Part shown: positions 13,535 through 32,566 of the stretch, piece by piece | Layout of the letters: each line of letters starts with the position of its first letter | Position numbering within the stretch: position 1 is the stretch's first letter | Assembly: GCF_021391495.1 (NCBI RefSeq) | Contig: NZ_CP090063.1 | Span: 4,960,001-5,024,000 of the forward strand | Direction of reading: 5' to 3' | Length of the DNA stretch: 64,000 nt | Source of the DNA: Amycolatopsis acidiphila | Lineage (GTDB): Bacteria; Actinomycetota; Actinomycetes; Mycobacteriales; Pseudonocardiaceae | Made by a program: the position numbers and the translations under genes | Notes under the pieces: model-generated | The model's database searches: none | What the model saw: the letters and a program-made list of their open reading frames with translations, nothing else | What the model was told of the DNA's origin: nothing

Positions 13535-13552
13535 CAAGAATATAGATTCTTG
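13535..13552. promoter_or_regulatory. 18-bp operator-like element (motif 1), site A
   Basis: CAAGAATATAGATTCTTG is a near-perfect inverted repeat, with mismatches only at the two central pairs, located 94 bases upstream of the CoA transferase start at 13646. It is the best copy of an element that recurs at 18990, 21581, 22619, 30549 and 32549, with a weaker copy at 23441. Confidence 0.65.
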
Positions 13553-13645
13553 ACCTTCACCCCTCCACTTCCGGCAAAGAGGCGACTATTTTATGTGACG
13601 GCGGCCCCGCCGTTTGCCGGGAAGTTCCTCACCGTGGAGGTACCG

Positions 13646-16075
13646 ATGAGCTCGACCTCACCCGCTCCGCCGCTCGCAGGCCTGCTCGTCGTCGACGTCT
13701 CCACGACGCTTCCCGGAGCTCAGGCCACCCAGTTCCTCGCCGACGCCGGGGCGGACGTGGTGCAGGTCGAGCCCCCGGGCGGCAGTCCGCTGCGCCGCAA
13801 CGCCGGCTGGCCCGTGTTCGCCAGGGGCAAGCGGAGCATCGAGCTCGACCTCCACGAGGCCGCGGACCAGGAGGTCCTCGACGGCCTGCTCGCCCGCGCC
13901 GACGTCCTCGTCGCGGCCGGGCGGCCGCAGGCGCTGCGGCGGCGGGGCCTGACCGCGGAGCGCCTGTCCGCGCTCAACCCGCGCCTGGTCAGCGCGACGA
14001 TCACCGGCTGGGGCAGCTCCGGGCCGTGGGCGGACCTCAAGGGCTACGAAGGCATGGTGCTGGCCAAGCTCGGCATGTTCCACAACAAGCGGCTGATGGT
14101 CTCCCGGCCGGGCCCGGCGTTCATCTCGGTGCCCTTCGCGTCCTGGGGTGCGGCGCACACCGCCCTGCAGGGCGTGCTCTCGGCGCTGCTGGAGCGGGAG
14201 ACCAGCGGCCGTGGCCAGCACATCGAGGCCGACCTGGTGCGGGGGGTGGCCATGATGGACACCTGGCAGTGGAACGCCGAGCTGATCGCGCTGCGCTGGC
14301 CGGGGGCCTACGAGACCGTCGACGCCTACACGCCCGAAGGCGAACCGCGGGGCCACATGCTGTTCCCGCTGCTGGTGGCGCCGACGAAGGACGGCACCTG
14401 GCTGCAGTTCGCCCAGGTCGAGCCGAGGCTGTTCGTGGGCATGCTCGAGGAGTTCGGCCTGGGCTGGATGCTCACCGACCCGCAGTGGAAGGGCATCCCC
14501 CGCTTCGACGACCAGGCCCGCAAGAGCAAGCTGTGGGAGATCATGCTCGCGAAGGTCGGCGAGCGGACGCTCGCCGAGTGGCAGGAGGCCTTCGCGCGCA
14601 ACCCGAACCTCAGCGCCGAGGCGTTCCGCGCGGGGCCGGAGATCCTGGACCATCCGCAGCTGGCCCACGACGGCCGGGTCGTGGTGGTCGACGATCCGGA
14701 CCTGGGGCCCGTCCGCCAGCCCTCGACCCTTGTGCACGCCGGGGAACGACCGCTCTCCCAGCCGCGGCCCGCACCGCGGCTCGGCGCCGACGCGGAGGCG
14801 GTCCGCGCACTGGCGGCGCGGCCGTCCGAGCCGGCCGCACCAGTACCCGCGCCCGCGGGTGCGCTGCCCCTGGCCGGGGTCACCATCCTCGAGCTCGGCC
14901 TGATGTTCGCGGCGCCGTTCGGGTCCACGATGCTCGCCGATCTCGGCGCCCGGGTCATCAAGATCGAGTCCCTGCAGGGCGACACCATCCGCAACGTGCT
15001 GCCCTTCCCCGAGTCGGGTGGCGCCCGCGTCATGCAGGGCAAGGAGAGCATCTGCGTCGATCTGTCCACCGAGGACGGACGCCGGATCGTGCACGAACTC
15101 GCCCGGCGTGCCGACGTGGTGCTGCAGAGCTTCCGGGCCGGGGCGGCGGCCCGTGCCGGCGTCGACGCGGCGACCCTGTGCGAGCTCAACCCGGACCTGG
15201 TCTACGTGAACGCGCCCGGTTACGGCTCCGGCGGGCCCTACGGCGCGAAACCGGCCTACGCGCCGTCGATCGGCGCCGCCACCGGCATCGCGCTGACCGA
15301 GGTGCCCGGCGCGGCTTCGGCCACCGGGACGATGGACCAGATCAAGGAGGGCTCGCGCCTGCTCAACCAGGCCTGTGCCGTGCCGAGCCTGCAGGCCGAC
15401 GGGATCGCCGCACTGGGGGTCGCCTCGACGATGCTGCTGGGGTTGCTGGCGAGGGCGCGCGGGCGGGCGCTCGACGAGCTGACCGCCACCATGATCGGGA
15501 CCGTCGGGCACGCGCTGGCCGAGCGCGCGACCGACTACTTCGGCCGCCCCGACGGCCCGGTTCCCGATGCCGGCGCCACCGGCTTTTCCGCGCTGTACCG
15601 GATGTACCCGGCAAGCGAGGGCTGGGTCTTCCTCGCCGCGCCGGCGCCCGGCGAGTGGGCGCCGCTGGCGGAGGCGCTCCGCCTCGACGACCCACGGTTC
15701 GGCGCCGCCGAAGGCCGGCGCGAGCACGACGGCGCGCTCGCCGAGACGCTCGCCCGGATCTTCGCCACCCGTCCCGCCGGCGAGTGGGAGCAGGAGCTGA
15801 CCGCGGCCGACATCGGGTGTGTGCAGGTGCACGAGGGGTCCGCCGAACTGCAGTTGCAGGCGGACGAAGCGCTCGCGGCCGAGTACGCGGCTTCCGCGGT
15901 GAGCCCGATCTTCGAGGAATCCCTGCGCATGGGCACCCCGGTCCGGTTCTCCCGCTCGCGCACCCGGGCACCGGGCGGCTGCCTCGCCGGCGACCACACC
16001 GACGCGCTGCTCGCCGAGCTGGGTTACGACGAGACGGCGATCGCGGACCTGCGGGACCGCAAGGTGATCGGCTGA
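13646..16075 (+). CDS. two-domain CaiB/BaiF (class III) CoA transferase, paralog 1
   Basis: This is an 809-residue tandem of two CoA-transferase domains. Domain 1 (about 8-395) starts LAGLLVVDVSTTLPGAQATQFLAD and domain 2 (about 408-809) starts LAGVTILELGLMFAAPFGSTMLAD. They are joined by a short Pro/Ala linker. In domain 1 the stretch aligned with the catalytic G-Q-x-x-D motif reads GQHIEAD, with Glu194 at the usual Asp position and Asp196 two residues later. Domain 2 reads RALDELTATM there. Homodimers of this family interlock as rings, so a fused pair may act as a pseudo-heterodimer. The ATG follows a GTGGAGG site. The likely role is CoA transfer to the pathway acid. A close paralog lies at 32638. 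Confidence 0.85.
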   Translation: MSSTSPAPPLAGLLVVDVSTTLPGAQATQFLADAGADVVQVEPPGGSPLRRNAGWPVFARGKRSIELDLHEAADQEVLDGLLARADVLVAAGRPQALRRRGLTAERLSALNPRLVSATITGWGSSGPWADLKGYEGMVLAKLGMFHNKRLMVSRPGPAFISVPFASWGAAHTALQGVLSALLERETSGRGQHIEADLVRGVAMMDTWQWNAELIALRWPGAYETVDAYTPEGEPRGHMLFPLLVAPTKDGTWLQFAQVEPRLFVGMLEEFGLGWMLTDPQWKGIPRFDDQARKSKLWEIMLAKVGERTLAEWQEAFARNPNLSAEAFRAGPEILDHPQLAHDGRVVVVDDPDLGPVRQPSTLVHAGERPLSQPRPAPRLGADAEAVRALAARPSEPAAPVPAPAGALPLAGVTILELGLMFAAPFGSTMLADLGARVIKIESLQGDTIRNVLPFPESGGARVMQGKESICVDLSTEDGRRIVHELARRADVVLQSFRAGAAARAGVDAATLCELNPDLVYVNAPGYGSGGPYGAKPAYAPSIGAATGIALTEVPGAASATGTMDQIKEGSRLLNQACAVPSLQADGIAALGVASTMLLGLLARARGRALDELTATMIGTVGHALAERATDYFGRPDGPVPDAGATGFSALYRMYPASEGWVFLAAPAPGEWAPLAEALRLDDPRFGAAEGRREHDGALAETLARIFATRPAGEWEQELTAADIGCVQVHEGSAELQLQADEALAAEYAASAVSPIFEESLRMGTPVRFSRSRTRAPGGCLAGDHTDALLAELGYDETAIADLRDRKVIG

Positions 16076-16092
16076 CCCTTCCGGTGGTCGCA

Positions 16093-16129
16093 CGAGAAGT
16101 GCCGCCCCCGGCGCGGGGGGCACTTCTCG
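16093..16129. terminator. bidirectional terminator hairpin
   Basis: CGAGAAGTGCC and GGCACTTCTCG form a perfect 11-bp stem around a GC-rich loop, between the convergent CoA transferase (ends 16075) and dehydratase (ends 16220). An outer CCGGTG/CACCGG pair extends it. There is no long T-run, as is common in actinomycetes. Confidence 0.75.
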
Positions 16130-16219
16130 CACACCGGTGGTTACCTGAACACGTCGGCGACGTCGATCGGGCTGTTCCGCCACCCGCCCCGCCGCGTAAA
16201 CCGCTTCTGGGAACTGCCC

Positions 16220-17461
16220 TTACTCGCCGATGCTGAACCGGGCGAGCTCGTGCTCGACCATGCCGTCCAGGGTCGGCGCGGGGGGCTCGGGCAGGCTGAC
16301 CGGCGACTGCCTGGTCGGCAGCAGCACCACGGCGGTACCCGGCGTGCTGGTCTCGCCCCGCTGGTTCTCGCACCACACCCGCAGGTGCACCTCGTTGCGC
16401 CCGTCGGTCTGCTTCTTCTCCACGACCTCGCCGCGCACCCACGTGACGTCGCCGATGTAGTTGAACTTGCGGTGCTCGCAGCGCAGGCGCCACAGCCAGG
16501 CGTCGTCGCCCATCCAGTCGGTCACCAGGTGGGTCAGCCAGGTCTCGCGCATCGCGCCGTAGTCGTAGGAGTTGGGCAGGCCCAGCTCCTGTGCCCGGGC
16601 CGGCTCCCAGTGCAGCCGCTGCACGGTGTCGGGCACGTTGAGCCCGTTGCGCGGATACAGCCCGGGCGCCTTGCGCCGCACCTTCGCCGCGATGCCGAAC
16701 GCGCCGGGCGGGGTGAGCTGCATGCCCCAGCCCAGGTGCCAGACCACGACATCGGTCGTCGTCAGCGGCCCCTTGACCCGCGGCTGCAACTCGTCGCCGA
16801 CCCGGACGTCCTCGAAGTAGCGTGGCTCGGGGCCGCGCCGGGTCTCGGCCGCGTAGGCGGCGTCGATCTCGGCGATCTGCTCGTCGGTGTACGGAGCCGG
16901 CTCGAGCTTCTCCTTGGCCCGCTTCTTGGACGTGTGGCGTTCGGCGTTGATCCACGTGCCACGGCGCACGGCGTGCATCTCGCCCTCGCCGTTGGTGTAG
17001 AGGTAGTCGTGGGTGATGTGCGCGGTGCGGCCGCCGAACCGGCTTTCCTTGGGCTGCACGCCCACCTGCGCCTGCAGCACCCGGCAGCGGTCGCCGAGCC
17101 GCAGCGGCCGCCACCACTCGAACTCCATCACGGCCTGGTACGACCCCAGCCCCGCGAACGGATCGCCCTTGAGCAGCGCCTTGGTCTCGGGATCCGGCTT
17201 GGGGGCCGCGTCCTCGCCCATGGTGTACAGGAAGTTCGGCGGCGCGAGCAGCGATCCCCAGCGGGTCCGGGCGGCGTACTCCGGGTCGCAGTAGAGCGGG
17301 TTGTCGTCGCCGTAGCCGTAGGCGAAGTGGCGCGTCCCGTCGGCGGTGACCTCGTAGTTGTGCGGCGGGTTGTACTGCGGGTTCGGCACCCCGAGGCGAC
17401 GGCGGGAGCGCTCGATCGCCTCGTCGGTCAGCACTCCGAAGCGCTCTTCTGTTCTGGTCAC
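16220..17461 (-). CDS. MaoC-type dehydratase, fused double hotdog (FAS1-like dehydratase domain)
   Basis: This 413-residue protein has an N-terminal hotdog of the FAS1-like dehydratase type (FAYGYGDDNPLYCDPEYAARTRWGSL, GSYQAVMEFEWWRPLRLGDR) and a second hotdog-like half (VVVWHLGWGMQLTPPGAFGIAAK, HRKFNYIGDVTWVRGEVV). The D-D-N-P-L-Y motif with a nearby Gly is typical of R-specific enoyl hydratases. It may hydrate an enoyl-CoA of the pathway. The GTG start overlaps the ligase stop (GTGA), so the two are co-translated. The second half is longer than a simple MaoC domain and lacks the clear catalytic His motif, so it may be structural. Confidence 0.75.
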   Translation of the reverse strand: MTRTEERFGVLTDEAIERSRRRLGVPNPQYNPPHNYEVTADGTRHFAYGYGDDNPLYCDPEYAARTRWGSLLAPPNFLYTMGEDAAPKPDPETKALLKGDPFAGLGSYQAVMEFEWWRPLRLGDRCRVLQAQVGVQPKESRFGGRTAHITHDYLYTNGEGEMHAVRRGTWINAERHTSKKRAKEKLEPAPYTDEQIAEIDAAYAAETRRGPEPRYFEDVRVGDELQPRVKGPLTTTDVVVWHLGWGMQLTPPGAFGIAAKVRRKAPGLYPRNGLNVPDTVQRLHWEPARAQELGLPNSYDYGAMRETWLTHLVTDWMGDDAWLWRLRCEHRKFNYIGDVTWVRGEVVEKKQTDGRNEVHLRVWCENQRGETSTPGTAVVLLPTRQSPVSLPEPPAPTLDGMVEHELARFSIGE

Positions 17462-18951
17462 TGCGATACCTCCTCGTCGAGGGCCTGTGCGGCGCGCACG
17501 AGCTCGAGCAGCTCCACACGGCTCACTTTCGTCGACGGCGTGCGCGGCAGTGCCGCCACGACGACCACGTGCTTGGGGACCTCATAGGGCAGAAGCTGCT
17601 TGCGGCACAACGCCATCAGCTCGTCGGCCGACGGTCGCGCGGATCCGGGCTCGACCTCGACGGCGGCCACCGGGATGGCGCCGAGGCGGGTGTCCGGGAG
17701 TCCGGCCACAGCGGCCTCGCGCACCGCGGGATGGGCTTCCAGCGCGCGTTTCACGGTTTCCGGCTGGATCTTGAAGCCGCCCCGGACGATCGTGTCGTCG
17801 GCCCTGCCGACGATCCAGACGAACTCGTCGCCGTCGATGCGCGCGAGGTCGCTGGTCCGCACCCACTCCCGGCCGCCCTGCGCGGTCTGCGCGGCACGCA
17901 CCTCGAGCAGCCCGGTCTCCCCGGCCGGCAGCTCCGCCCCGTCCGCGCCGGTGACGCGCAGCTGCACACCGGGGAACGCGCGGCCGGCGCTGCCTGCCTT
18001 GTGCTCCCACCACTGCTCGTGCAGCGGCAGTGTCCAGCCGGCGACCGCGCCGGCGAACTCCGTCGCCCCGTAGGTCATCAGCACCCGGATGCCGTAGCGG
18101 CGGAAGAACTCCTGCGCCAGCTCCGCCGGGCACGCGGTGGTGCCCGAGGTCACGACCTGCAGGCTGGCGAGCCTGGCCGGCGCGACGTCCGCGTCGAGCA
18201 CGCTGCGCAGCGCGGCGGGCACCAGCCCGGCCGCGCGCAGCTGGTGCCGCTCCACGGCGCTCACCCACGGGTCCAGCTCGAACCTGGGCATCAGCACCAG
18301 GCGACGGCCGGCGTAGAGGCAGGCGAGCACGCCCCACAGGCCACCGATGTGCACCAGCGGCGTCGCCACGAGCGAGGCCGAGGCGGACAGCAGCCTGCCC
18401 TCCTTCGGGGACTGGCCGCTGGAACCGAGGGACTCGTCGAGCTGGCGGACGGACAGTCGCACGCGCTTGGGCGGGCCGGTGGTGCCGGAGGTCAGCATCT
18501 CGACCGCGATGCCAGGGCTGACCTGGTGCTCCGCACGCGGCACGCCGCCCAGGGCCCGCACGGAGCCGTCTGGGCCGAGCCGCACTGCGAGGCCCGCCAC
18601 GTCCCGCATCCGTTCCCGGGCGAGGATCTCCGGCCCGGCGATCAGCACCGGAAGCGCGCTGCGCTCGATGTCCGCGATCATCCGCGCCGCCGGTTGCAGC
18701 GGGCTCACGGTGACCACGGTCCGGCCCGTCGCGAGTACCGCCAGTAGCGCGGCGACGTGCTCGGGCCGGTTCTCGACGACGATGCCGATCCGGGTGTCCG
18801 CGCCCAGCCCGGCGGCCTCCAGTTCGCGGACGAGTGCCGCCGCGGTCTCGCGCAGCCGTCCCCAGGACCACCACGCCGCGTCGTGCTCGACTGCCTTGGC
18901 TTCCGCAGGGGCCTCGCGCAGCAGGAGCGCGAGCCGTTCCCGGATCCCCAC
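17458..18951 (-). CDS. AMP-dependent acyl-CoA synthetase/ligase
   Basis: This is a 497-residue ANL-superfamily enzyme. Visible motifs are EMLTSGTTGPPKRV (P-loop, with Arg where the second Lys is usual), MTYGATEFAG, RTSDLARIDGDEFVWIVGRADDTIVRGGFKI, and C-terminal LPRTPSTKVSR, where the catalytic Lys is expected. The N-terminal domain is about 50 residues shorter than a typical ligase. It would activate a carboxylic acid to acyl-CoA through the acyl-AMP. The GTG start is preceded by a promoter region holding motif 1 at 18990. It is co-transcribed with the MaoC-type dehydratase. Confidence 0.85.
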   Translation of the reverse strand: MGIRERLALLLREAPAEAKAVEHDAAWWSWGRLRETAAALVRELEAAGLGADTRIGIVVENRPEHVAALLAVLATGRTVVTVSPLQPAARMIADIERSALPVLIAGPEILARERMRDVAGLAVRLGPDGSVRALGGVPRAEHQVSPGIAVEMLTSGTTGPPKRVRLSVRQLDESLGSSGQSPKEGRLLSASASLVATPLVHIGGLWGVLACLYAGRRLVLMPRFELDPWVSAVERHQLRAAGLVPAALRSVLDADVAPARLASLQVVTSGTTACPAELAQEFFRRYGIRVLMTYGATEFAGAVAGWTLPLHEQWWEHKAGSAGRAFPGVQLRVTGADGAELPAGETGLLEVRAAQTAQGGREWVRTSDLARIDGDEFVWIVGRADDTIVRGGFKIQPETVKRALEAHPAVREAAVAGLPDTRLGAIPVAAVEVEPGSARPSADELMALCRKQLLPYEVPKHVVVVAALPRTPSTKVSRVELLELVRAAQALDEEVSQ

Positions 18952-18989
18952 GCCGATCTCCGTTCGTTCCGCCGCGCCGACACGGCAAA

Positions 18990-19007
18990 TAAGAGTATAC
19001 TCAACAA
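18990..19007. promoter_or_regulatory. 18-bp operator-like element (motif 1), site B
   Basis: TAAGAGTATACTCAACAA lies 39 bases upstream of the GTG of the ligase at 18951. Its core GAGTATACTC is a perfect palindrome. It shares AAGARTATA with the other copies. A second weaker TATAGATT sequence is at 19042-19049. Confidence 0.55.
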
Positions 19008-19073
19008 CCCGGTCTCCGGACGAGCCTCGACCGCTGGTTTCTATAGATTAATTAGTTGCACAATTCACGGTCG

Positions 19074-19889: not shown

Positions 19890-19894
19890 CCCGG

Positions 19895-20524
19895 TCAACC
19901 CTTCAGCTGGTTCCTGTTCCGCGCCGTGACCGCGGCCCGGCGTTCGTCGAGGCCCGTGAAATCCGGGCGATGCGCGCCGGCGAGCTCCTGCTCCACGGTC
20001 AGCGCGGCGCCGAAGATCGCTTCCGCACCCCGGGTGCAGACCTCCTTGAGCGCCACCATGTCGCGCGGGGACACCTCGGCCGCGGCGCTCGCCAGTGCGA
20101 GCGCGTGCGCCCGGAGTCGTTCGTGTGGCACCACTTCGGTCACGAGGCCGATCCGGGCCGCGAGTGCGGCGTCCACGACCTCGCCGGTCATCGACATCCG
20201 CCGCGCCCACGCCGGGCCGACCAGCCGCGCGGTCAGCCCGCCGCCCGGCAGCACGCCCACCCGCACGTGCGTGTCGGCGAACACCGCCTTCTCCGATGCC
20301 ACCAGGAAATCGCAGCCCAGCGCGAGCTAGAGCCCGCCGGTGAAGGCGGCACCGCCGACGGCGCCGACGACCGGCTTGCGGACCCGGGCGACCTGGTTGA
20401 TGCAGTCCTCGTCGTCGTAGCGCCGGAAGTACCGTTCGCCTTCGCGGGCCGCCTGTTTCAGGTCCACGCCCGCGCAGAAGGCCGGGTCCGCGCCCACGTC
20501 CTCGACGAGCAGCACGTCGCTCAT
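19895..20524 (-). pseudogene. enoyl-CoA hydratase, broken by nonsense codon and internal deletion
   Basis: The frame begins at an ATG overlapping the stop of the F420-type oxidoreductase and would encode a crotonase. It is interrupted by an in-frame TAG at 20327-20329. On either side the protein reads GGAAFTGGL and LALGCDFLVASEKAVFADTHVRVGVLPGGG. Family members have GGLELA here, so the missing residue is almost certainly the active-site Glu (GAG to TAG). The N-terminus is also short: it passes from MSDVLLVEDVG straight to ADPAFCAGVDLK, losing the roughly 40 residues with the NRPxxxNA motif. Two independent lesions make a sequencing error unlikely. Translation could restart within the 3' part, but not as an enzyme. 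Confidence 0.85.
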
Positions 20525-21537
20525 CCCGCCGCCCGCACGGCGACAGCCAGCTCGGTGCTCAGCGACGGGTCGATGTCGTAGGGCGTGTAGAGCGAGATCC
20601 GCGTGAGCACGTCGCCGTAGGCCTCGTGCAGGCGGGTGGCGACCTCGTCCGGGCGGCCGACGATCGCGACGGCGTGCAGCAGCTCGTCGTCGATCAGCCT
20701 GCCCATCTCGGCCCACTCCCCGGCCCGCGAGAGCGTGTGCAGCCGGTCGCCGAGCTCGCCCCTGCCGTGCAGCTCGAGCACCGGGCGGTAGGCCGGCGTG
20801 GAACCGTAGAAGGCGATCTGCCGCCGAGCACCGTCGCTCGCCCTGGCCAGCTCCTCGTCGGTCCGGCCGACGACCAGCATGGTGGAACCGGTGATCTCGA
20901 AGCCCTCGGCCGTGCGGCCCGCCTTCTCCCGACCGCGCAGCAACGCCGGCAGGGTGACTTCGCGCAGGTACCGCTCCGTGGTGAACCCGTGGCAGAGGAA
21001 GCCGTCGGCGACCTCGCCCGCGATCTCGGTCATCGCGACGCCGACCCCGGCGAGCAGCACCCGCGGCGGCCCGAAGGAATGCCGGCCGGGCACGAACATC
21101 GGGGTCATCAGCGTGTGCGTGTAGAACTCGCCGCGGAACTCCAGCGGGGTGCCCTGCGCCCAGCAGTCCCAGATCGCCCGCAACGCGAGCACGTACTCCC
21201 GCATCCGCCGGGCCGGCTGCGACCACGGCATGCCGAACCGCCGGGTGATGTGCGCCTTGACCTGGGTGCCCAGCCCGAGCATCACCCTGCCGCCGGAGAG
21301 CTCCTGCAGGTCGTTGCCCAGTACGGCGACCGACATCGGGTTCCGCGCGAAAGCCAGCGCGATCGCGGTACCGAGCTCGATCCGGTCGGTCGCGGTGGCC
21401 GCCAGGGCCAGCGACACGAACGGGTCGTGCTTGATCTCGCTGGTCCACGCCCCGTCGTAACCGTCGCGTTCGGCCTGGCGCACCGCTTCGCGGCAGTCCA
21501 CCTGGCCGTGGATCGGGATGGTCAGGTCGACCTTCAC
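20521..21537 (-). CDS. LLM-class F420-dependent oxidoreductase (TIGR03617-like)
   Basis: This is a 338-residue luciferase-like TIM barrel. Motifs include YDGAWTSEIKHDPFVSLALAA, IELGTAIALAFARNPMSVAVLGNDLQELSGGRVMLGLGTQVKAHI, and VADGFLCHGFTTERYL. The combination, including the 'GLGTQVKAHITRRF' stretch, matches the MSMEG_2256-type subfamily thought to use coenzyme F420. It probably oxidises an alcohol or reduces a double bond in the pathway. It starts with GTG behind a GGAAGG ribosome site. The divergent region to 21683 contains motif 1 (21581). The downstream gene overlaps by ATGA and is broken. Confidence 0.83.
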   Translation of the reverse strand: MKVDLTIPIHGQVDCREAVRQAERDGYDGAWTSEIKHDPFVSLALAATATDRIELGTAIALAFARNPMSVAVLGNDLQELSGGRVMLGLGTQVKAHITRRFGMPWSQPARRMREYVLALRAIWDCWAQGTPLEFRGEFYTHTLMTPMFVPGRHSFGPPRVLLAGVGVAMTEIAGEVADGFLCHGFTTERYLREVTLPALLRGREKAGRTAEGFEITGSTMLVVGRTDEELARASDGARRQIAFYGSTPAYRPVLELHGRGELGDRLHTLSRAGEWAEMGRLIDDELLHAVAIVGRPDEVATRLHEAYGDVLTRISLYTPYDIDPSLSTELAVAVRAAG

Positions 21538-21580: not shown

Positions 21581-21598
21581 TATGAATCTATACTCTTG
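21581..21598. promoter_or_regulatory. 18-bp operator-like element (motif 1), site C
   Basis: Read on the minus strand this is CAAGAGTATAGATTCATA. It is centred in the 145-base divergent region between the F420-type oxidoreductase (minus) and the crotonase at 21683 (plus), so it could control both. Confidence 0.6.
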
Positions 21599-22618: not shown

Positions 22619-22636
22619 GAAGAATATAGATTCTAT
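22619..22636. promoter_or_regulatory. 18-bp operator-like element (motif 1), site D, overlapping GntR start
   Basis: GAAGAATATAGATTCTAT ends 3 bases before the first ATG of the GntR gene. Fifteen bases (AAGAATATAGATTCT) are identical to site A at 13535. TAGATT inside it is positioned like a -10 box for a leaderless transcript starting at the ATG. Autoregulation is likely. Confidence 0.65.
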
Positions 22637-22638
22637 CT

Positions 22639-23440: not shown

Positions 23441-23458
23441 GAATAATCCATATTCGTA
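23441..23458. promoter_or_regulatory. motif 1-like element, weak site E
   Basis: On the minus strand the sequence TACGAATATGGATTATTC matches the best copy (13535) at 13 of 18 positions. It lies 147 bases upstream of the SDR start at 23606 and just after the GntR gene. Confidence 0.4.
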
Positions 23459-24367: not shown

Positions 24368-25179
24368 CCGCCTTCGACACGCTGCTCGAAGAGCACGGCG
24401 AGCACGTCGAGCTGCGGGGCCGGGTGCTGCGCTGCCCGGTCGCGACCAGCGCCGCCGGGAACTCGATGGACGGCCCGCGCACGGCGAGCGCGACGGCCCT
24501 GCTGCAGGCGATCGCCGACGGCGGGACCAGCGCGGTGGGCGCGGTGGTGCTGTTCGGTGCGGGCACCAGCTTCTGCACCGGCGGCAACGTGAAGGGCTTC
24601 GGCGCCGCGGACGACCCCGGCCCCTACGTCAGCGGGGTGGCCCGGACCTTCCACGACTTCATCCTCGCCGTCACCCGCGTGCCGGTGCCGGTGGTGGCCG
24701 CCGTGCACGGGTGGGCCGCGGGCGCCGGGATGAGCATCGCGCTCGCCTGCGACCTGGTGGTCGGCGGCCCGGCCACGAAGTTCCGGCCCGCCTACCCCGC
24801 CATCGGGTTCACCCCCGACGGCGGCATGTCGTGGCTGCTGCCCAAGATCGTCGGCCCCATCCGGGCGCGGGACATGCTGCTCACCGACGCCGTCGTGGGC
24901 GGCGAGGAGGCCGAGCGACTCGGGCTGCTCAGCCGGCTGGTACCCGACGACCGCGTGCAGGCCGAGGCGCAGCTCGTCGCGGAGCAGCTCGCACAGGGCC
25001 CGACCGGGGCGTTGGGCCGGATCAAACGGCTCGCGTGGGAGTCCGCCGACCGGGGGCTCGCCGAGCACCTCCCGCACGAGGCGCGATCGATCGGCGAGTC
25101 GGCGGCGAGCCCGGGCGGCCGCGAAGGAGTACGCGCGTTCGCCGAGCGAAGGCCCGCGGACTTCTCCACCACCTGGTGA
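24364..25179 (+). CDS. enoyl-CoA hydratase/isomerase family protein (PaaG-like)
   Basis: This is a 271-residue crotonase: oxyanion loop [36 protein letters not shown], and [21 protein letters not shown]. The TPDGG motif with Asp, and the loss of the first Glu (GMSIALACD), are shared with PaaG-type isomerases rather than simple hydratases. The N-terminus is unusual: the NRPxxxNA motif is replaced by [14 protein letters not shown]. The GTG start overlaps the SDR stop by four bases. The two genes form a short plus-strand unit that may catalyse consecutive steps, isomerisation and 3-hydroxy oxidation. Confidence 0.82.
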
Positions 25180-25234: not shown

Positions 25235-25999
25235 GTGACCCGAGCTGCCTCGGACCGCAACTTCGTGCGGCCCAAGAAGATGGCCGACATGGTCGCCGAC
25301 CGGATCCGGCGGATGATCGCGCGCGGCGAGATCGGCGACGGCCAGTGGCTGCCCACCGAGCCGGAGCTGATGGAGGAGTTCGGCGTCTCCCGGCCCACCC
25401 TGCGGGAGGCCTTCCGCCTGCTCGAAGCGGACTCGCTCGTCACGATCCGGCGCGGGCCGCCGGGCGGCGCGCGGGTGACCATTCCCGGGGCGGAGGCGGC
25501 GGCGGCCCAGTTCGGCCTGCTGCTCACGCTGTCCGGTACGACGATCCGCGACGTGTACGAAGCGCGCATGGTGGTCGAGCCGGCCGCCGCACGGGAGCTG
25601 GCGCAACGCGGTACCGCGGCGAGCAGGAAGGCGCTGGCCGAGGAGCTGGCCGAAGCCCGCGCCGCGGTCGAGACCGCGGCGTTCGGCCAGCGCTCGGTCC
25701 GGTTCCACCGGCGCGTCGTCGAGCTGGCGGGCAACCAGACCCTGGCGACGGTCATCGGGATGCTGTCGGAGATCGTCAGCAGGCACCTCGCCCGTGCCTA
25801 CGACGAGACCCCCGACACCTCCGCGGAGACCATCGCCCGCAACCGCAAGGCGCTGCGTGCCTACGAGAAGCTGGTCGAGCTCGTGGAGTCCCGCAACGGC
25901 GAGGAAGCCGAGAAGTTCTGGCTCAAGCACATGCGCGCCGCCCGCCCGCACCTGTTCCGCGGCGGTGACGAGACCCAGGTCGTGGACCTTCTTTACTGA
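25235..25999 (+). CDS. FCD-type GntR family transcriptional regulator 2
   Basis: This 254-residue protein is a close paralog of the regulator at 22639. The winged helix reads FGVSRPTLREAFRLLEADSLVTIRRGPPGG, and the FCD domain has IRDVYEARMVVEPAAARELA and VRFHRRVVELAGNQTLATV. Both proteins end with a similar tail (E-T-Q-V-V-D-L-L-Y/H). A GTG start follows ATGGAGAGG. It is 55 bases after the crotonase and may be expressed with that unit. Ligands of FCD regulators are usually small carboxylates or acyl-CoAs. The pair probably arose by duplication within the locus. Confidence 0.87.
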   Translation: MTRAASDRNFVRPKKMADMVADRIRRMIARGEIGDGQWLPTEPELMEEFGVSRPTLREAFRLLEADSLVTIRRGPPGGARVTIPGAEAAAAQFGLLLTLSGTTIRDVYEARMVVEPAAARELAQRGTAASRKALAEELAEARAAVETAAFGQRSVRFHRRVVELAGNQTLATVIGMLSEIVSRHLARAYDETPDTSAETIARNRKALRAYEKLVELVESRNGEEAEKFWLKHMRAARPHLFRGGDETQVVDLLY

Positions 26000-26030: not shown

Positions 26031-26036
26031 ACGTGG

Positions 26037-27074
26037 TCAGCGGTTCGCTCCGGTCAGTTCCAGCAGCCGGGCGCGATGCCAGCGAGGCGTGCCGCCGAGC
26101 AGCTCGTCGGTCTTGATCCGCCGCAGGAACACGTGCACCGGCTGCTCCCAGGTGAAGCCCATGCCGCCGTGCAGCTGCAGGGCCAGGCCGGCGAGCCGGC
26201 TGCACGCCTCCCCGGCGAAGGAGCCCGCGGAGGACACCGCGAACGCGCGCGCGACCGGGTCCTCGTCGTCGAGCGCCCGCATGGCGGCCAGCACCGCCCC
26301 CCTGGACAGTTCCAGATCCACGGCCATGTTCGCGCAGTGGTGCTTGACCGCCTGGAAGGAGCCGACCGCGCGGCCGAACTGCTCGCGCGTGCGGACGTGC
26401 TCGAGGGTCAGCTCCAGCAGCCGGGAGGCGGCGCCGACCGCGTCGGCCATCAGGTGCACAGCGGCCGCTTCCCGGGTGGTCGTCGTGTCCGCCTCGGCCC
26501 ATCCGACCGCCACGGCCGATTCCAACGCCACCGCGGCGAAACGGCGCGAGATGTCGAGGATGCTGCGAGGAGTGACGGTCACGCCGTCGGCCTTCGTGTC
26601 GACCACGGCCACCACCGATGACTCCGCCGTGTGCGCGAGCACCAGCACCTGGTCCGCCTCCGCTCCGGCGAGGACGAACTCCGCCCGCCCGCTCAGCCGC
26701 AGCGAGTCCCCGGCGGGTTCCGCCGTGATGTCGGGGGCGCCGCGTTCGGCGACAGCGGGCACGCACAGCCCGGCAGGCCGGAGCCCCGCGGACTCGGCCA
26801 GTCCCGCGGCGAGCGCCACCGGCGCGATCGGCAGCGCGCAGCCGGTGCGGCCGAGCTGTTCGACCACGACGGCGAGATCGGTGTGCGTCCCACCGCCGTC
26901 CTCGGTCAGCAGGCCGGTCAGCCCGAGATCTCCCGCGGCGGCGAGCTGTTTGTCCGTCCACAACGGATCGGCGCCGGCGAGCACCGCGGCCGGGTCGGTG
27001 TGCTCGTCGGCGAACGCCAGTGCCATCGCCGCGAGGTCCCGCTGGTCCTCGCCGAGTGCCAGGTCGCCGCTCAT
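26037..27074 (-). CDS. acyl-CoA dehydrogenase, short subunit type (FadE-like)
   Basis: This 345-residue protein has a shortened ACAD fold: an N-terminal LGEDQRDLAAMALAFADEH, a poorly conserved middle domain without the FAD-contact TEPGAGSD stretch, and conserved C-terminal helices TREQFGRAVGSFQAVKHHCANMAVDLE and LALQLHGGMGFTWEQPVHVFLRRIK. The Glu in FTWE is the presumed base. It parallels the 362-residue gene at 10022, and like it is paired with a longer ACAD gene next door (27071). The ATG overlaps that gene's stop by four bases, which supports an obligate complex. It is the last gene of the unit 30512-26037. Confidence 0.83.
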   Translation of the reverse strand: MSGDLALGEDQRDLAAMALAFADEHTDPAAVLAGADPLWTDKQLAAAGDLGLTGLLTEDGGGTHTDLAVVVEQLGRTGCALPIAPVALAAGLAESAGLRPAGLCVPAVAERGAPDITAEPAGDSLRLSGRAEFVLAGAEADQVLVLAHTAESSVVAVVDTKADGVTVTPRSILDISRRFAAVALESAVAVGWAEADTTTTREAAAVHLMADAVGAASRLLELTLEHVRTREQFGRAVGSFQAVKHHCANMAVDLELSRGAVLAAMRALDDEDPVARAFAVSSAGSFAGEACSRLAGLALQLHGGMGFTWEQPVHVFLRRIKTDELLGGTPRWHRARLLELTGANR

Positions 27075-28228
27075 CGGCCCACCTGCTCCCGGGGCAGGCC
27101 GAGCCCGCGCTCGGCGATGAGGTTGCGCATGATCTCCGAACTCCCGCCCGCGATCGTGTAAGCGCGCGCGTACAGGTAGGCGTCCTGCCAGCTTCCGTCG
27201 TCGACCACGCCCGGATCGCCTTCGGTCAGCACGCCTTCGGCTCCTTGCAGGGAAAGCGCGTACTCGGCCAGCCGCAGGTTCAGCTCGCTGAAGGCCAGCT
27301 TGGCGACCGGGGCGTCGAGCGCCCGCTCGGCGCCCTCGCGCCAGCGGGCGAGGCTGAGCCGGGTGTGCACCGACAGCGCCTGGATCTCCGCGAGGAAGGC
27401 GGCGAGCCGGTCCCGGGTCTCAGTGTCGTCGAGCCGGCCGGTGGCGGCGGCGAGCTCCCGCAGGCGGCTCCAGTTCCGTTCCAGCGTCACCACCGAGGCG
27501 CCGACGCCGCTGCGTTCGTGCGCGAGCGAGGTGTTCGCGATCTGCCAGCCCTGGCCCGGCTTGCCGATCACCGCTTCCACGGGCACCCGGACGTCGTCGA
27601 AGAACACCTCGTTGAAGTCGGAGGTGCCGGTGATCTCCCGCAGCGGCCGCACGGTGACCCCGGGCAGCCGCATGTCCAGTGCGAACGCCGTGATGCCCTT
27701 GTGCTTGGGCGCCGCCGGGTCCGTGCGCGCGAGCAGGTAGCCCAGATCGGCCCACTGGCCGTTCGTTGTCCAGACCTTCTGCCCGTTGACCACGTAGTGG
27801 TCGCCCTCGAGCACCGCCTTCGTGCGCAGGGAGGCGAGGTCGCTGCCCGCGCCGGGCTCGCTGAACAGCTGGCACCACAGGTCCTCGCCGGAACGGATGC
27901 GCGGCAGGTACCGCCGCCGTTGCTCCTCGGTGCCGAACCCGAGCAGCGCCTGCGCGGCCAGCATCGACCCGCCAGGCGCCTGCAACGCGCCGGCGCGCGC
28001 GACCTCCTCGGCCACCACGACGTCCCGGAGCACGTCGTGCCCGGGGGTACCGCCGTATTCCACGGGCCAGTCGGCGCCGGCGTAGCCCGCGTCGAACAGC
28101 TTCGCCGTCCATGCCCGCAGCACGGCCAGCTCCGCCTCGGTCTCGGGGCTCCGCACACCCGCCCGCGGTTTCACGTCTGGCGCGTGCTCCGTCAGGAACT
28201 CGCGCACTTCGTCGCGGAAGCCGTTCAC
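27071..28228 (-). CDS. acyl-CoA dehydrogenase, large subunit type (FadE-like)
   Basis: This 385-residue flavoprotein carries WCQLFSEPGAGSDLASLRTKAV, YVVNGQKVWTTNGQWADLG and the C-terminal YTIAGGSSEIMRNLIAERGLGLPRE. The position of the usual C-terminal Glu is Gly (AGGS), as in the long partner of heteromeric dehydrogenases. It starts with GTG in a GTGA overlap with the ACAD at 28225, and its own stop overlaps the short-subunit gene. The operon thus has three ACAD genes in a row: one homomeric-looking and one pair. Confidence 0.85.
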   Translation of the reverse strand: MNGFRDEVREFLTEHAPDVKPRAGVRSPETEAELAVLRAWTAKLFDAGYAGADWPVEYGGTPGHDVLRDVVVAEEVARAGALQAPGGSMLAAQALLGFGTEEQRRRYLPRIRSGEDLWCQLFSEPGAGSDLASLRTKAVLEGDHYVVNGQKVWTTNGQWADLGYLLARTDPAAPKHKGITAFALDMRLPGVTVRPLREITGTSDFNEVFFDDVRVPVEAVIGKPGQGWQIANTSLAHERSGVGASVVTLERNWSRLRELAAATGRLDDTETRDRLAAFLAEIQALSVHTRLSLARWREGAERALDAPVAKLAFSELNLRLAEYALSLQGAEGVLTEGDPGVVDDGSWQDAYLYARAYTIAGGSSEIMRNLIAERGLGLPREQVGR

Positions 28229-29367
28229 AGTCCGAGGCTCTTTCCGATGATGTCCTTCATGATCTCGGTGGTGCCGCCGTAGATCGTCTGGATCCGGGTG
28301 TCGGTATACGCGCGGGACACCGAGTACTCGCTCATGTAACCGTAGCCGCCGTGCAGCTGCACGCAGGTGTCCACCACCCGCTTCTGCAACTCGGTGGTCC
28401 ACCACTTCGCCTTCGACGCCTCGACGGCGGTGAGCTCGCCGTCCACCACCGCGCGCAGGCAGCGGTCCACGTAGACCTCGGCGATCTCGAGCTCGGTCTC
28501 CATCTCGGCCAGCTGGAACTTGTTGTACTGGAACGAGCCGACCGGTTGCCCGAACGCCTTGCGGTCCTTGACGTAGCCGAGGGTCTCGTCGAACACCTCC
28601 CTGGCGCCCGCGACGGCGGAGATCGCGATGGACAGCCGCTCCGAGGGCAGGTTGTGCATCAGGTGGTAGAAGCCGCGCCCCACCTGGCCCAGCACGTTGG
28701 CCGCGGGCACCCGCACCTGGTCGAAGAACAGCTCGGCGGTGTCCTGCGCCTTCTGCCCCATCTTGTCCAGGTTGCGCCCGCGCGTGAAGCCGGGCATGTC
28801 CCGCTCCACCACGAGCAGGGTGAACCCCTTGTGCCCGGCTTCGGGATCGGTCCGGGTCACCACCACCACGAGGTCGGCGTTGATGCCCGAGGAGATGAAC
28901 GTCTTGGCGCCCGAGAGCACCCAGTCTTCGCCGTCGCGCACGGCGGAGGACCGGATGCCGGCGAGGTCGCTGCCCGCGCCGGGCTCGGTCATCGCGACCG
29001 CGGCGATCAGCTCGCCCCGGGCGAAGCCGGGGAGCCACCGCTGCTTCTGTTCGGGGGTGGCCAGCGAAAGCAGGTACGGCGCGAGGATGTCGTTGTGCAG
29101 GGTGAACGCGGGCACGCCGGAGCCGAACCGCGCGAACTCCTCGCTCACGACCGCGTTGAACCGGAAGTCGTCGACTCCCCCGCCGCCGAACTCCTCGGGC
29201 ACGTTGAAGCCCAGCAGCCCGTACTTGCCGCCCGCGAGGTAGACCTCGCGGTCGACGATGCCGGCCGCCTCCCAGCGCGCGACATGCGGTTCGACCTCGC
29301 GCACGAGGAACTGCCGCACGGTTTCCCGGAACTGCTCGTGTTCCGGCTCGAAGATCGTCCGCCGCAT
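28225..29367 (-). CDS. acyl-CoA dehydrogenase (FadE-like)
   Basis: This is a 380-residue standard acyl-CoA dehydrogenase: VAMTEPGAGSDLAGIRSSAV, WVLSGAKTFISSGINADLVVV, GFTRGRNLDKMGQKAQDTAELFFDQVRVP, SERLSIAISAVAGA, and IYGGTTEIMKDIIGKSLGL. The C-terminal base position is Gly, while Glu in SERLS lies where isovaleryl- and long-chain-type enzymes carry theirs. It is probably a self-sufficient homotetramer oxidising an acyl-CoA, with electrons passed to ETF. Translation could also begin at GTG 29373, overlapping the thiolase stop (GTGA), two codons upstream. Confidence 0.86.
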   Translation of the reverse strand: MRRTIFEPEHEQFRETVRQFLVREVEPHVARWEAAGIVDREVYLAGGKYGLLGFNVPEEFGGGGVDDFRFNAVVSEEFARFGSGVPAFTLHNDILAPYLLSLATPEQKQRWLPGFARGELIAAVAMTEPGAGSDLAGIRSSAVRDGEDWVLSGAKTFISSGINADLVVVVTRTDPEAGHKGFTLLVVERDMPGFTRGRNLDKMGQKAQDTAELFFDQVRVPAANVLGQVGRGFYHLMHNLPSERLSIAISAVAGAREVFDETLGYVKDRKAFGQPVGSFQYNKFQLAEMETELEIAEVYVDRCLRAVVDGELTAVEASKAKWWTTELQKRVVDTCVQLHGGYGYMSEYSVSRAYTDTRIQTIYGGTTEIMKDIIGKSLGL

Positions 29368-29369
29368 CG

Positions 29370-30512
29370 TCACACCAGCTCCAGAATGGTGGCGTTGGCC
29401 TGCCCGCCGCCCTCGCACATGGTCTGCAGGCCGTAGCGGATGCCGTTGTCCTTCATGTGGTGCACCAGGGTGGTCATCAGCCGGGCGCCGCTGCCGCCGA
29501 GCGGGTGCCCGAGCGCGATCGCCCCGCCGTTCGGGTTGAGCGCCGCCGGGTCCGCGCCGAGCTCGGCCAGCCACGCGAGCGGCACCGGGGCGAAGGCCTC
29601 GTTCACCTCGAACGCACCGATGTCGCCGATCTTCAGGCCGCTCTTGGCGAGCGCCTTCCGGGTCGCGGGAATGGGCGCGGTCAGCATGATGACCGGGTCG
29701 TCGGCGGCCAGCACGGCGGTGTGCACCCGGGCGATCGGGGTGAGACCCAGCTCGGCCGCCTTCGCACTGGTCGTGATGAGCAGCGCGGACGCGCCGTCGC
29801 TGATCTGCGAGCTGTTGCCCGCGGTGATGACGCCGTCCTCCTTGAAGACCGCCTTCAGCCCGCCCAGGGTCTCCACGGTGCTGCCCCGGCGGATGCCCTC
29901 GTCGGCGGAGATCTTCGTGCCGTCCACGTCGACCGGCGCGATCTGGGCGTCGAACCGGCCTTCGTCCTGTGCGCGGGCGGCCTTCTCGTGCGAGCTGACG
30001 CTGAACTCGTCGACCTGCCGGCGCGAGAGGCCCCAGCGCTCGGCGATCATCTCCGCGCCCTGCCCCTGGTTCGGCGCGATGCCGTGGTAGCGCTCCCGGA
30101 AGCCTTCGCCGAACGGCCACGCGCCGTTGGCCGAGGAGCCCATCGGCACCCGGCTCATGGACTCGACGCCGCCCGCGACCGCCAGGTCGTACTGCCCGCT
30201 CACGACGCCCGCGGCCACGAAGTGCACCGCCTGCTGGGACGAGCCGCACTGGCGGTCGACGGTCGTGCCCGGCACGCTCTCCGGCCAGCCCGCGCCCAGC
30301 ACCGCGTTACGCGCGATGTCGAAGGCCTGCTCGCCGGACTGCGTCACGCAGCCCAGCACGACGTCGTCCACGAGCGCGGGGTCGATGCCCGACCGGTCGG
30401 CCAGTGCCTTGAGCACGTGTGCCGCGAGGTCGGCAGGCGCCACGGGCGAAAGGCCGCCGTTGCGCTTGCCGACCGGAGTGCGTACCGCTTCGACGATCAC
30501 CGCATCGCGCAC
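29370..30512 (-). CDS. acetyl-CoA acetyltransferase / 3-ketoacyl-CoA thiolase
   Basis: This is a 380-residue thiolase II family enzyme with all catalytic parts: nucleophile Cys89 in TTVDRQCGSSQQAV, NEAFAPV, GGAIALGHPLGGSGAR (His) and TMCEGGGQANA (second Cys). It splits a 3-ketoacyl-CoA into acetyl-CoA and a shortened acyl-CoA. It is the first gene of the leftward operon 30512-26037 (thiolase and three ACADs). Its promoter lies in the 268-base divergent region with the CoA transferase at 30781, which contains motif 1 at 30549, 37 bases upstream of its start. Confidence 0.9.
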   Translation of the reverse strand: MRDAVIVEAVRTPVGKRNGGLSPVAPADLAAHVLKALADRSGIDPALVDDVVLGCVTQSGEQAFDIARNAVLGAGWPESVPGTTVDRQCGSSQQAVHFVAAGVVSGQYDLAVAGGVESMSRVPMGSSANGAWPFGEGFRERYHGIAPNQGQGAEMIAERWGLSRRQVDEFSVSSHEKAARAQDEGRFDAQIAPVDVDGTKISADEGIRRGSTVETLGGLKAVFKEDGVITAGNSSQISDGASALLITTSAKAAELGLTPIARVHTAVLAADDPVIMLTAPIPATRKALAKSGLKIGDIGAFEVNEAFAPVPLAWLAELGADPAALNPNGGAIALGHPLGGSGARLMTTLVHHMKDNGIRYGLQTMCEGGGQANATILELV

Positions 30513-30548
30513 CGGAACCTCCTTGTTCGAACTGGGTGAAGTTCAGTG

Positions 30549-30566
30549 AGTTTATCTGGACTCTTG
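30549..30566. promoter_or_regulatory. 18-bp operator-like element (motif 1), site F
   Basis: On the minus strand this is CAAGAGTCCAGATAAACT. It lies 37 bases upstream of the thiolase start, in the divergent region with the CoA transferase at 30781. The AGATAAACT half is identical to site G at 32549. Apart from this element and a TTTATATT stretch at 30734, nothing more is recognisable in 30513-30780. Confidence 0.55.
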
Positions 30567-30780
30567 TCAATGTGTCAGCATCGGACGTTACTGTGTTTGT
30601 CTAGATTCATCAACTCAATCCGGCGGCAGCGGAGACGAGCTGGAGCGGGTTGTTCCCCGGCGGCCGGGAGGCTGGGACGACGGGGCGAGAGCACTGGCGG
30701 CGGGCTACCTCGCGGGCCATCCGGCGAGCGTTTGTTTATATTCCAAGGCTGAACCACACCACCGAACAAAGGGGAAGCAC

Positions 30781-31875
30781 GTGCCGGGTCCGTTGCAAGG
30801 CCTGCGGGTGGTGGAGTTGGCGGGGATCGGGCCGGTCCCGCACGCGGCGATGATCCTCGCCGATCTGGGTGCCGACGTGGTCCGGGTCGAACGCCCCACC
30901 ACAGGATTCGACCCCACCGGCGAACACCCCGACCACCTCCTGCGCAACCGCCGCTCCCTCACCGCCGACCTCAAAACCGACCAAGGCCGCACCCTCGTAC
31001 TACGCCTCGCCACGAAAGCCGACATCCTGCTCGAAGGATTCCGCCCCGGCGTCGCCGAACGCCTCGGCATCGGCCCCCAACCCTGCCAACACCACAACCC
31101 CCGCCTCATCTACGCCCGCATGACCGGCTGGGGCCAAACCGGCCCCCTGGCCCCCCGCGCCGGACACGACATCAACTACATCTCCCTCACCGGCACCCTG
31201 CACGCCATCGGCCGACCCGGCCACCGCCCCGTCCCACCCCTCAACCTCATCGGCGACTTCGGCGGCGGCTCCATGTTCCTCCTCACCGGCATCCTCGCCG
31301 CCCTCCACGAACGCCACACCTCCGGCCACGGCCAGACCATCGACGCCGCCATGATCGACGGCACCAGCGTCCTCACCCAAATGATGTGGGCCCTCCGCGG
31401 CGCCGGCACCTGGAACGACGACCGCGGCACCAACCTCCTCGACGGCGGCGCCCCCTACTACGACACCTACACCTGCGCCGACGGCAAACACATCGCCGTC
31501 GGCTGCCTCGAACCCCAGTTCTACACCGCCTTCCTCCACGGCCTCGGCCTCCACAACGAGAACCTCCCCGCCCAACACGACCGCAACAGCTGGCCCACCC
31601 TGCGCACCCGCTTCACCACCGTCATCGCCACCAAAACCCGCGACCAATGGACCCACATCTTCGACAACACCGACGCCTGCGTCACCCCCATCCTCACCTT
31701 CACCGAAGCACAACAACACCCCCACCTCACCGCCCGCCACACCCTCATCGACATCGACGGCATCACCCAAGCCGCCCCCGCACCCCGCTTCTCCCGCACC
31801 CCCACCACCACCCCCACACCACCCCCAACCCCCGGCACCGACACCCAAGCCGTCCTCGCCGACTGGCAACCCTGA
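30781..31875 (+). CDS. CaiB/BaiF family protein, alpha-methylacyl-CoA racemase type
   Basis: This is a 364-residue single-domain class III CoA-transferase-fold enzyme. [66 protein letters not shown] and [17 protein letters not shown] match alpha-methylacyl-CoA racemases, with the Asp in TIDAAM and the His in AGHD as the racemase acid/base pair. It would invert (R)- to (S)-2-methylacyl-CoA, which acyl-CoA dehydrogenases require for branched or steroid-type side chains. Base use is odd: the coding strand is very rich in C and poor in G, with many AAA, CAA, CCA and ACC codons, unlike its neighbours. That may indicate a separate origin. Confidence 0.85.
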
Positions 31876-31935
31876 CCGGGAACCGGCACCTCTAGGCTGA
31901 ATCCGGAAACCCAGGTCGAACGAGGAGGCGGGCCC

Positions 31936-32544
31936 GTGCCGGCGGAGGTCTCGGAACGGTCGCGGATCATGGACGCCGCGTACCGGTGCCTGGCCACGAG
32001 CAACGGTGACGGCGTCTCGGTGACGGACATCCTGCGCGAGGCGGGCCTGTCGACGCGCGCCTTCTACCGGCACTTCGACTCCAAGGACAACCTCCTGCTG
32101 GCGATGTTCCGGCGGGACAGCGACCGGGTGCACGCCGAGCTCGAGTCCGCCGCCCTCGCGGCGGGCTCGCCCACCGAGGCGCTGCGGGCCTGGATCGAGG
32201 GGTACCTGCGGCTGACCTCGCAGCCGCGGCGAAGGCAACGGGTCCTCGTGCTCTCCTCCGCCGAACTGATGCGCGCCGCCGGGTACGCGGACGAAAGGAC
32301 GCGGTCGATGATCCGGCTCCAGGACGGCATCGCGGAGATTCTCCGCCGCGGGCTCGACGACGGCTCGTTCCCCTGGGCCGCCCCGGAGCCCGACGCCCGC
32401 GCCATTCGGGCCGCGCTGACAGAGGCCTTCGCCGAACAGATGAGCAGGTCGACGACGGTGCCCGCGGCCGTCGCGGCCGATCAGGTGATCAACTTCGCGT
32501 TCCGGGCCCTGGGCGCGCGCAGACCCGGCGAGACTGGTCAATGA
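31936..32544 (+). CDS. TetR family transcriptional regulator
   Basis: This is a 202-residue TetR-type repressor. The N-terminal helix-turn-helix reads IMDAAYRCLATSNGDGVSVTDILREAGLSTRAFYRHFDSKDNLLLAMF (residues 10-57), followed by a helical ligand domain. The GTG at 31936 has CGAGGAGG 8 bases before it. It lies 60 bases after the racemase-like gene and immediately before the region containing both motif 1 (32549) and motif 2 (32605), so it is a good candidate to bind one of them. The ligand is unknown, probably an acyl-CoA or the parent acid. Confidence 0.87.
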   Translation: MPAEVSERSRIMDAAYRCLATSNGDGVSVTDILREAGLSTRAFYRHFDSKDNLLLAMFRRDSDRVHAELESAALAAGSPTEALRAWIEGYLRLTSQPRRRQRVLVLSSAELMRAAGYADERTRSMIRLQDGIAEILRRGLDDGSFPWAAPEPDARAIRAALTEAFAEQMSRSTTVPAAVAADQVINFAFRALGARRPGETGQ

Positions 32545-32548
32545 AGAT

Positions 32549-32566
32549 AGTTTATCTATACCCTTG
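32549..32566. promoter_or_regulatory. 18-bp operator-like element (motif 1), site G
   Basis: On the minus strand this is CAAGGGTATAGATAAACT, immediately after the TetR stop and 72 bases upstream of the CoA transferase at 32638. As at site A, TTGACC follows on the plus strand. Confidence 0.6.

Follow-up and report, generated by a model that had tools for sequence, protein, structure and literature searches.

A palindromic element at two unlinked loci of Amycolatopsis acidiphila is most likely the operator of a local acyl-CoA catabolic regulon, probably bound by GntR-type proteins

The DNA studied here is a stretch of 64,000 nucleotides from Amycolatopsis acidiphila (called the window; C1:4960001-5024000 of the host genome G000, a single contig of 8,183,622 bases). 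It contains a recurrent 18-bp palindromic element that stands in front of genes for acyl-CoA breakdown in two separate regions of the chromosome and, in other genera, in front of related regulator genes; a regulator therefore most likely binds there. We propose that the element is most likely the local operator of a catabolic regulon and that its binder is probably the GntR-type proteins encoded beside the sites. Stated more narrowly, a GntR-FCD dimer (the twin proteins of the window and their paralogues at 3378714-3380311) would bind the element as its operator, probably as a repressor, a reading to which we assign a probability of about 0.6. A previous reading of the window (the sequence-only reading) had listed six sites and a weaker seventh, had suggested that they define a regulon and had named the twin GntR proteins or a TetR protein as the possible regulator.

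Results

The sites, their positions, a second locus, conservation across genera and linkage to genes were read directly from the DNA. Genes were mapped with a simple codon-usage gene caller and labeled with Pfam and NCBIfam; start codons are as called. On re-reading, the coordinates and orientations of all seven 18-mers proved correct, and all seven lie between genes, as had been claimed, whereas intergenic DNA makes up 6.6% of the window. Their closeness to gene starts was likewise borne out: measured from its centre, each site precedes the nearest called start by 12-184 bp, and five of the seven do so by 46-80 bp. The palindrome CAAGAATATAGATTCTTG (13535..13552, plus strand) stands upstream of a two-domain CoA-transferase gene, the putative operator at 21581..21598 (minus) between a divergent F420-type oxidoreductase gene (minus) and a crotonase gene (plus), and the one at 22619..22636 (plus) directly upstream of the first GntR-FCD gene. 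A weaker putative operator (23441..23458, minus; score 19.4) is located downstream of this GntR gene and upstream of a short-chain dehydrogenase (SDR) gene. The putative operators at 30549..30566 (minus), upstream of the thiolase gene, and at 32549-32566, which together with an abutting third half-site (32540-32548) occupies 32540..32566 (minus) upstream of a second two-domain CoA-transferase gene, are asymmetric, one arm belonging to a second half-site type, AGTTTATCT.

Besides this asymmetry, two corrections to the earlier list are needed. The 18-mer at 18990..19007 was rightly placed, and its centre precedes the acyl-CoA ligase start by 48 bp, but it is a shorter palindrome, GAGTATACTC, with half-sites two bases closer, and it fits worst. 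The list of six was also incomplete, as it missed a core match at 30594..30611 (minus; core GAATCTAGACAA) and weaker sites at 19036..19053 (score 18.2; its centre precedes the ligase start by 94 bp), 32540 and 30729..30746 (score 12.2; upstream of a single CoA-transferase gene).

A position matrix, the check suggested by the sequence-only reading, recovered the sites. With leave-one-out matrices the six sites ranked between 3 and 11 of 63,983 window positions. A symmetric matrix trained on 12 sites outside the window, controlled by 60 symmetric column permutations, gave nine best window matches (13535, 22619, 21581, 30594, 23441, 19036, 32540, 32549 and 30549, with 32540 overlapping 32549), all of them intergenic and six of them among the seven sites listed before; 18990 appeared at rank 11 (as 18988, score 10.4). 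At thresholds of at least 20, 15 and 12 the window held 4, 9 and 10 matches versus permuted means of 0.08, 0.48 and 1.37. At all three thresholds each of the 60 permutations fell short of the real count, and the permuted maximum at 15 or above was 2. The test is strong, but not wholly independent because its 12 training sites were first found with window-derived patterns.

In the whole host genome, AAGARTATAGAT with up to one mismatch gave 12 matches versus 1 for the reversed control; eight of the 12 lie in the window or at 3.380-3.422 Mb and the others at 3507902, 5616236, 5634008 and 6828962. Around the first of these four, a site scoring 20.2 (C1:3507901-3507918; L017:9901-9918) is centred about 37 bp upstream of a gene whose product is 38% like a DUF2889-like protein of the second locus, a possible third regulon member. 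With up to two mismatches, AAGARTMTANATTC gave 23 strand matches versus 6 for the control, several palindromes being counted on both strands, and the nine that fall outside both loci each carry two mismatches. The exact core GARTMTAKATTC occurs at six places, all in the window or the second locus (3.38-3.42 Mb). It is absent from all six other same-genus genomes sampled and from 137 of 150 sampled family genomes; 12 of the other 149 have one or two. The wider core KWRTMTAKAYWM was found at 12 places versus 2 for its reversed control, eight in the two loci and the remaining four, at 7.79 and 7.81 Mb, overlapping words of the TATATATA type.

These scans bear on the reading that nothing more is involved than a promoter feature (an AT-rich -10 region) or AT-rich words assembled by chance. 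Intergenic DNA is indeed AT-rich, and the central TATAGAT resembles a -10 hexamer. However, the element is palindromic, the permuted matrices fail, and the core is clustered in two loci and absent from the six other genomes of the genus sampled; a generic promoter feature was rejected on the rarity of the core across genomes and the failure of the permuted matrices, and we regard this reading as extremely improbable. The sequence-only reading had been ready to see a mere promoter feature if the element recurred at equal frequency throughout unrelated promoters; as far as such a scan could be run, its outcome favours the regulon.

The second locus (host 3.365-3.445 Mb, L013-L016) is unlinked to the window and contains similar kinds of genes and many sites. 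It encodes a GntR pair at 3378714-3379478 (79% identical to the second window GntR) and 3379520-3380311 (68% to the second, 58% to the first), and a site at 3380360 (score 17.2) lies 58 bp upstream of this pair. Paralogues are further found for the TetR-family regulator TetR-A (72%; 3425628-3426224), the ligase (53%), an acyl-CoA dehydrogenase (65%) and the DUF2889-like protein (60%). Both thiolase promoters carry two sites 45 bp apart (at 3376955 and 3377000 in the second locus); by our own count the sites are identical at 33 of 36 bases and the intervening stretch at 14 of 27. On sequence alone, one putative operator type is present at unlinked loci of one genome.

Behind the second-locus pair of sites, a 118-amino-acid frame (C1:3377053-3377409; L013:12053-12409) joins a thiolase start to an acyl-CoA dehydrogenase-like end and is apparently a deletion remnant whose promoter kept both putative operator copies. 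The amidohydrolases of the two loci (window 35172-36524; host C1:3386843-3388195) are 100% identical and a small neighbouring protein 96%, versus about 50-80% for most other paralogues, which speaks for a recent duplication or gene conversion.

Within the element, counted over 18 sites with 18990 left out, T occupies position 7 in 36 of 36 half-sites and position 6 is A in 26 and G in 10. Strong sites from ten sources, 28 in all and including two nearly identical Actinomadura copies, were examined for a third half-site; 11 of them have one that directly abuts in the required orientation. At 30 other offsets in the same orientation it was found at 0-3 of the 28 each, and in the opposite orientation at 4 (offset 0) and 5 (offset 27). 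According to excerpts of PMC4494728, many GntR-family sites have weaker half-sites adjacent to them. Nocardia harenae (G546, L051) has four TTATCTAGATAA-like cores at distances of 14-44 kb from a close GntR gene (C9:196768), and these show a second half-site type, the same that forms one arm of 30549 and 32549; one of the four, the variant core TTATATAGATAA, stands upstream of the second GntR gene of this genome. The short type also occurs at 3402719 and in L191 (8569, plus one arm of 13876). The corresponding AGTATACT words (window 18990; host C1:3402719; L191 8569 and 13876) are all intergenic by the gene caller, number four in the 518,899 bases scanned (cluster DNA and related stretches, some of them counted twice) and may represent a second type of operator in these clusters.

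A contig scan with the four GntR proteins of the host yielded nine loci, in Nocardia (three), Actinomadura physcomitrii (three copies), and metagenome-assembled genomes of Pseudonocardia, Streptosporangiaceae and Actinomycetota; G073 was added from the family sample. The nine genomes with a close GntR relative (>400 bits) were picked for the GntR protein and not for the sites. In six of them (G000, G541, G542, G545, G547 and G073) the GntR gene, or the operon to which it presumably belongs, is preceded by a site scoring at least 20, and the highest score in the shuffle control (three per locus across nine GntR loci) was 17.2. In G073, sites of 24.7 and 22.9 lie near its sole GntR match. Comparison with orthologous loci, also suggested earlier, showed that the site at the first two-domain CoA-transferase promoter (13535) is identical to that of Actinomadura physcomitrii at 17 of 18 positions, versus 29 of 80 flanking bases. 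This conserved site, the second unlinked locus and the absence of the core from the six same-genus genomes support the proposal of a regulon.

Of the two candidates for the regulator named by the sequence-only reading, the twin GntR proteins are better supported than the TetR protein, though not decisively. The window twins are the first GntR-FCD protein (22639..23430, plus; 263 amino acids) and the second (25235..25999, plus; 254 amino acids); these candidate binders and both second-locus proteins carry PF00392 and PF07729, the domains of the FCD subfamily. The presence of GntR in the nine genomes is no test because they were selected for it, and the case rests on the upstream position of the sites, on cases without a close TetR and on site-free distant GntR loci. 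Among 29 distant GntR loci fetched with about 1.5 kb on each side (L085-L113), none reaches 15 (best 14.4). G073 has sites although its best TetR-A match is not a close one (E 3.3e-13) and a second TetR protein, TetR-B, has no match there at 1e-20. Conversely, TetR-A relatives without a close GntR nearby have no site (G390, 283 bits, best 5.1; G542:C2, 265 bits, best 8.6).

Several findings weigh against the GntR reading. In G543 a weak site (14.0) lies upstream of a TetR-GntR pair and the strong one (23.5) right after the GntR gene, and in G544 no site reaches 11 in its 10.7-kb contig. Other ortholog or paralog promoter pairs agree at 10-14 of 18 site positions, and the two ligase promoters, of which the window copy is the short type, at 8 of 18. 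Across the nine GntR genomes, the wider core is more frequent than its reversed control in G000, G073 and G546, equally frequent in G542 and less frequent in the other five; the looser pattern RTMTAKAYNA falls below its control in all nine and was discarded as a search core, being too loose. The main type has four nucleotides between the half-site steps (G/A)T and A(C/T), not the two or three of the FadR-subfamily consensus GT-N2/3-AC given in excerpts of PMC4494728. Exact cores occur, among the nine, in G000, G541 and G542, the three with a close TetR-A orthologue, and TetR genes of two other genera (L063, L074) stand beside GAATCTATATTC.

The last two points speak for TetR-A (31936..32544, plus), which, alone or with GntR, would bind the symmetric GAATATAGATTC sites and repress the CoA-transferase and other operons. 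Site 32549 lies right after its gene, the order TetR, site, two-domain CoA transferase is repeated in L045-L047, and in G541 an exact site stands just past the TetR-A 3' end. A TetR-like stretch in L064 lies about 1 kb from a core. Furthermore, 19 genomes in a class sample of 394 contain a TetR-A relative (E <= 1e-35), and 18 of these have a GntR match as well (E <= 1e-70). However, a close orthologue accompanies the sites in three of nine genomes: G073, G543, G545, G546 and G547 have sites without a close TetR-A (best E 2.6e-15 to 4.1e-12). The 21 TetR-A-related loci L170-L190 have no score above 12.0 and L193 none above 8.6. The stretch upstream of TetR-A itself lacks the element by inspection in the window, the second locus and L045/L046, and in G541 it holds a weak match (8.3). 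The TetR proteins of L063 and L074 match TetR-A over just 54-62 residues, at 34-43%. We consider TetR-A a serious rival, though a rather unlikely binder. Control by the cholesterol regulator KstR was discarded: TetR-A scores 25.7 bits against NF033703, whose cut-off is 280.

Relatives of GntR and TetR-A share one contig and lie about 60 kb apart at most in 14 of the 18 genomes by our own count (e.g. G198, G337, G406 and G422), and form a conserved regulator pair. The 12 other family genomes provide 13 single-match core loci, of which the gene caller places 11 between genes. In L063 and L074 the core separates the TetR gene from a divergently oriented FAD-binding monooxygenase-like gene, and in L070 and L076 it is beside WYL regulator genes. 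With the core beside unrelated TetR and WYL genes, the core string alone does not name the binder.

Yet another regulator may bind and the twins be mere targets, a reading we hold to be quite improbable. TetR-B (3421093-3421698) is flanked by sites at 3421023 and 3421710 and its relatives neighbour GntR genes in G543 and G546, but close relatives (>330 bits) are present in three of the nine genomes. A HutC-type GntR would agree with the spacing of the core, which is that of HutC sites in excerpts of PMC4494728; none of the seven UTRA matches in the host genome lies in either locus, and a HutC regulator linked to the loci was accordingly dropped. The third candidate of this kind is a fused double GntR, a single 492-amino-acid protein (C1:3399683-3401161; L014:14683-16161) with two GntR and two FCD stretches. 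Its fusion is not a novelty, as 2727 proteins at E <= 1e-30 were found among 8000 candidates scored; the 120 relatives listed are 401-515 amino acids long, and such proteins are common in actinobacteria.

Turning back to the GntR twins, their best-scoring solved relative by sequence is NanR (6on4, 88.5 bits). Loss of an arginine at helix-turn-helix position 28, by our own count on the Pfam consensus, was entertained as the cause of the relaxed half-site. In place of the arginine, 12 of the 13 aligned close proteins have Pro and the other has Ala, but the explanation is weak: the distant site-free loci lack it too, wherever the expression matched (15 of 33, with no match in 18). Genes for two distant GntR relatives precede the window by about 34 kb and 0.6 kb (C1:4924812-4925546 and 4958639-4959370), with no strong site within 1.5 kb (best 1.8 and 8.6). 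In genus g47, 11 of 11 distant GntR genes (L088, L090, L096, L100, L104-L106, L108, L110, L111 and L113) share an upstream element containing GGTTTACTGAGT, unlike the window site.

The genes of the region are as follows, by domain label. A protein with a short DUF2889 match (12720..13496, plus), with a 60% paralogue in the second locus, precedes the two-domain CoA-transferase of family III (13595..16075, plus; two stretches of PF02515, with ATG 13646 as a possible later start). On the minus strand lie a MaoC/FAS1-type dehydratase (16220..17461), the AMP-forming acyl-CoA ligase (17458..18951), a crotonase (19074-19889; gene map) and a TIGR03617 F420-dependent LLM oxidoreductase (20521..21537; 479.8 bits, cut-off 278.15). 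Two short frames at 19895-20515 match separate parts of a crotonase and are probably a degraded gene. A plus-strand crotonase (21683..22462), whose orthologues in L044-L047 are likewise preceded by upstream sites, leads to the first GntR gene, and the SDR (23633..24367, plus) and a further crotonase (24364..25179, plus) to the second. Three acyl-CoA dehydrogenase genes (26037..29373, minus) follow downstream of the thiolase (29370..30512, minus). The single CoA-transferase of family III (30808..31875, plus), TetR-A and the second two-domain family III CoA-transferase (32638..35070, plus) complete the set.

Discussion

The model that we infer for the element is one of GntR-mediated repression. 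A dimer would bind two inverted 9-bp half-sites with the core (G/T)(A/T)(A/G)T(A/C)T, and a third phased half-site, often abutting, may hold a further subunit. Bound slightly upstream of start codons, the regulator would shut off the ligase, crotonase, thiolase, dehydrogenase and CoA-transferase operons as well as its own gene, and its control would span the two unlinked loci. An acyl-CoA or acid intermediate of the pathway may release the regulator, which would bring ligation, beta-oxidation-like steps and CoA transfer under common control. The preference for repression over activation follows the site positions and the regulator family. Judging from the enzyme set, the substrate may be an alicyclic or branched acid.

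We hold a more specific proposal tentatively and at less than even odds: an FCD-type GntR branch would have switched to a four-base-spaced, HutC-like relaxed palindrome (the wider core), often with three phased half-sites of GAATCT or TTATCT type, that co-ordinates two paralogous catabolic loci, and the twins may bind asymmetric sites as a heterodimer. A heterodimer is not needed for such sites, because genomes with one close GntR (G543, G073) also carry them, and we dropped it as a requirement.

The literature was searched at the level of titles and abstract starts, and at that level no publication naming such an operator was found; for the strings GAATCTAGATTC and GAATATAGATTC, the occurrence checked, in PMC4176589, was part of a primer. 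The earlier statement that no described operator has this form nevertheless stands only in part, as the core has HutC spacing and resembles the BioR box, and similar palindromes occur beside unrelated TetR and WYL regulator genes elsewhere. The excerpts of PMC4494728 allow three comparisons. With the FadR (FCD) subfamily, our system shares linked regulators of GntR plus FCD composition, an AT-rich palindrome and adjacent weaker half-sites, and the short type (18990, 3402719) alone fits GT-N2-AC; besides the spacing, it differs in having A, not G, in most half-sites. The HutC operator NyGTMTAKACNy has the same centre and spacing (RTMTAKAY). The candidate binders, however, carry FCD and not UTRA. 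BioR belongs to biotin control, a different pathway. It is counted among FadR-subfamily regulators, and TTATM of its box TTATMKATAA is similar to the TTATCT half-sites found in Nocardia harenae and at 30549/32549, but the box has 5+5 bases versus 6+6 in the window core (PMC4494728, excerpts). In excerpts of PMC2230225, Corynebacterium glutamicum GntR1 and GntR2 are likewise two similar GntR regulators on one catabolic regulon; unlike here, their sites agree with TNGTNNNACNA and their genes (cg2783, cg1935) lie apart, whereas the window genes are close together.

If the GntR reading is true, it would provide an operator for an FCD-GntR branch of Nocardia, Actinomadura, probably Haloechinothrix, and uncultured actinobacteria, and an example of a change in half-site spacing among closely related GntR proteins. 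With it one could map the regulon of a large catabolic cluster that depends on F420 and CoA, and from the regulon its substrate.

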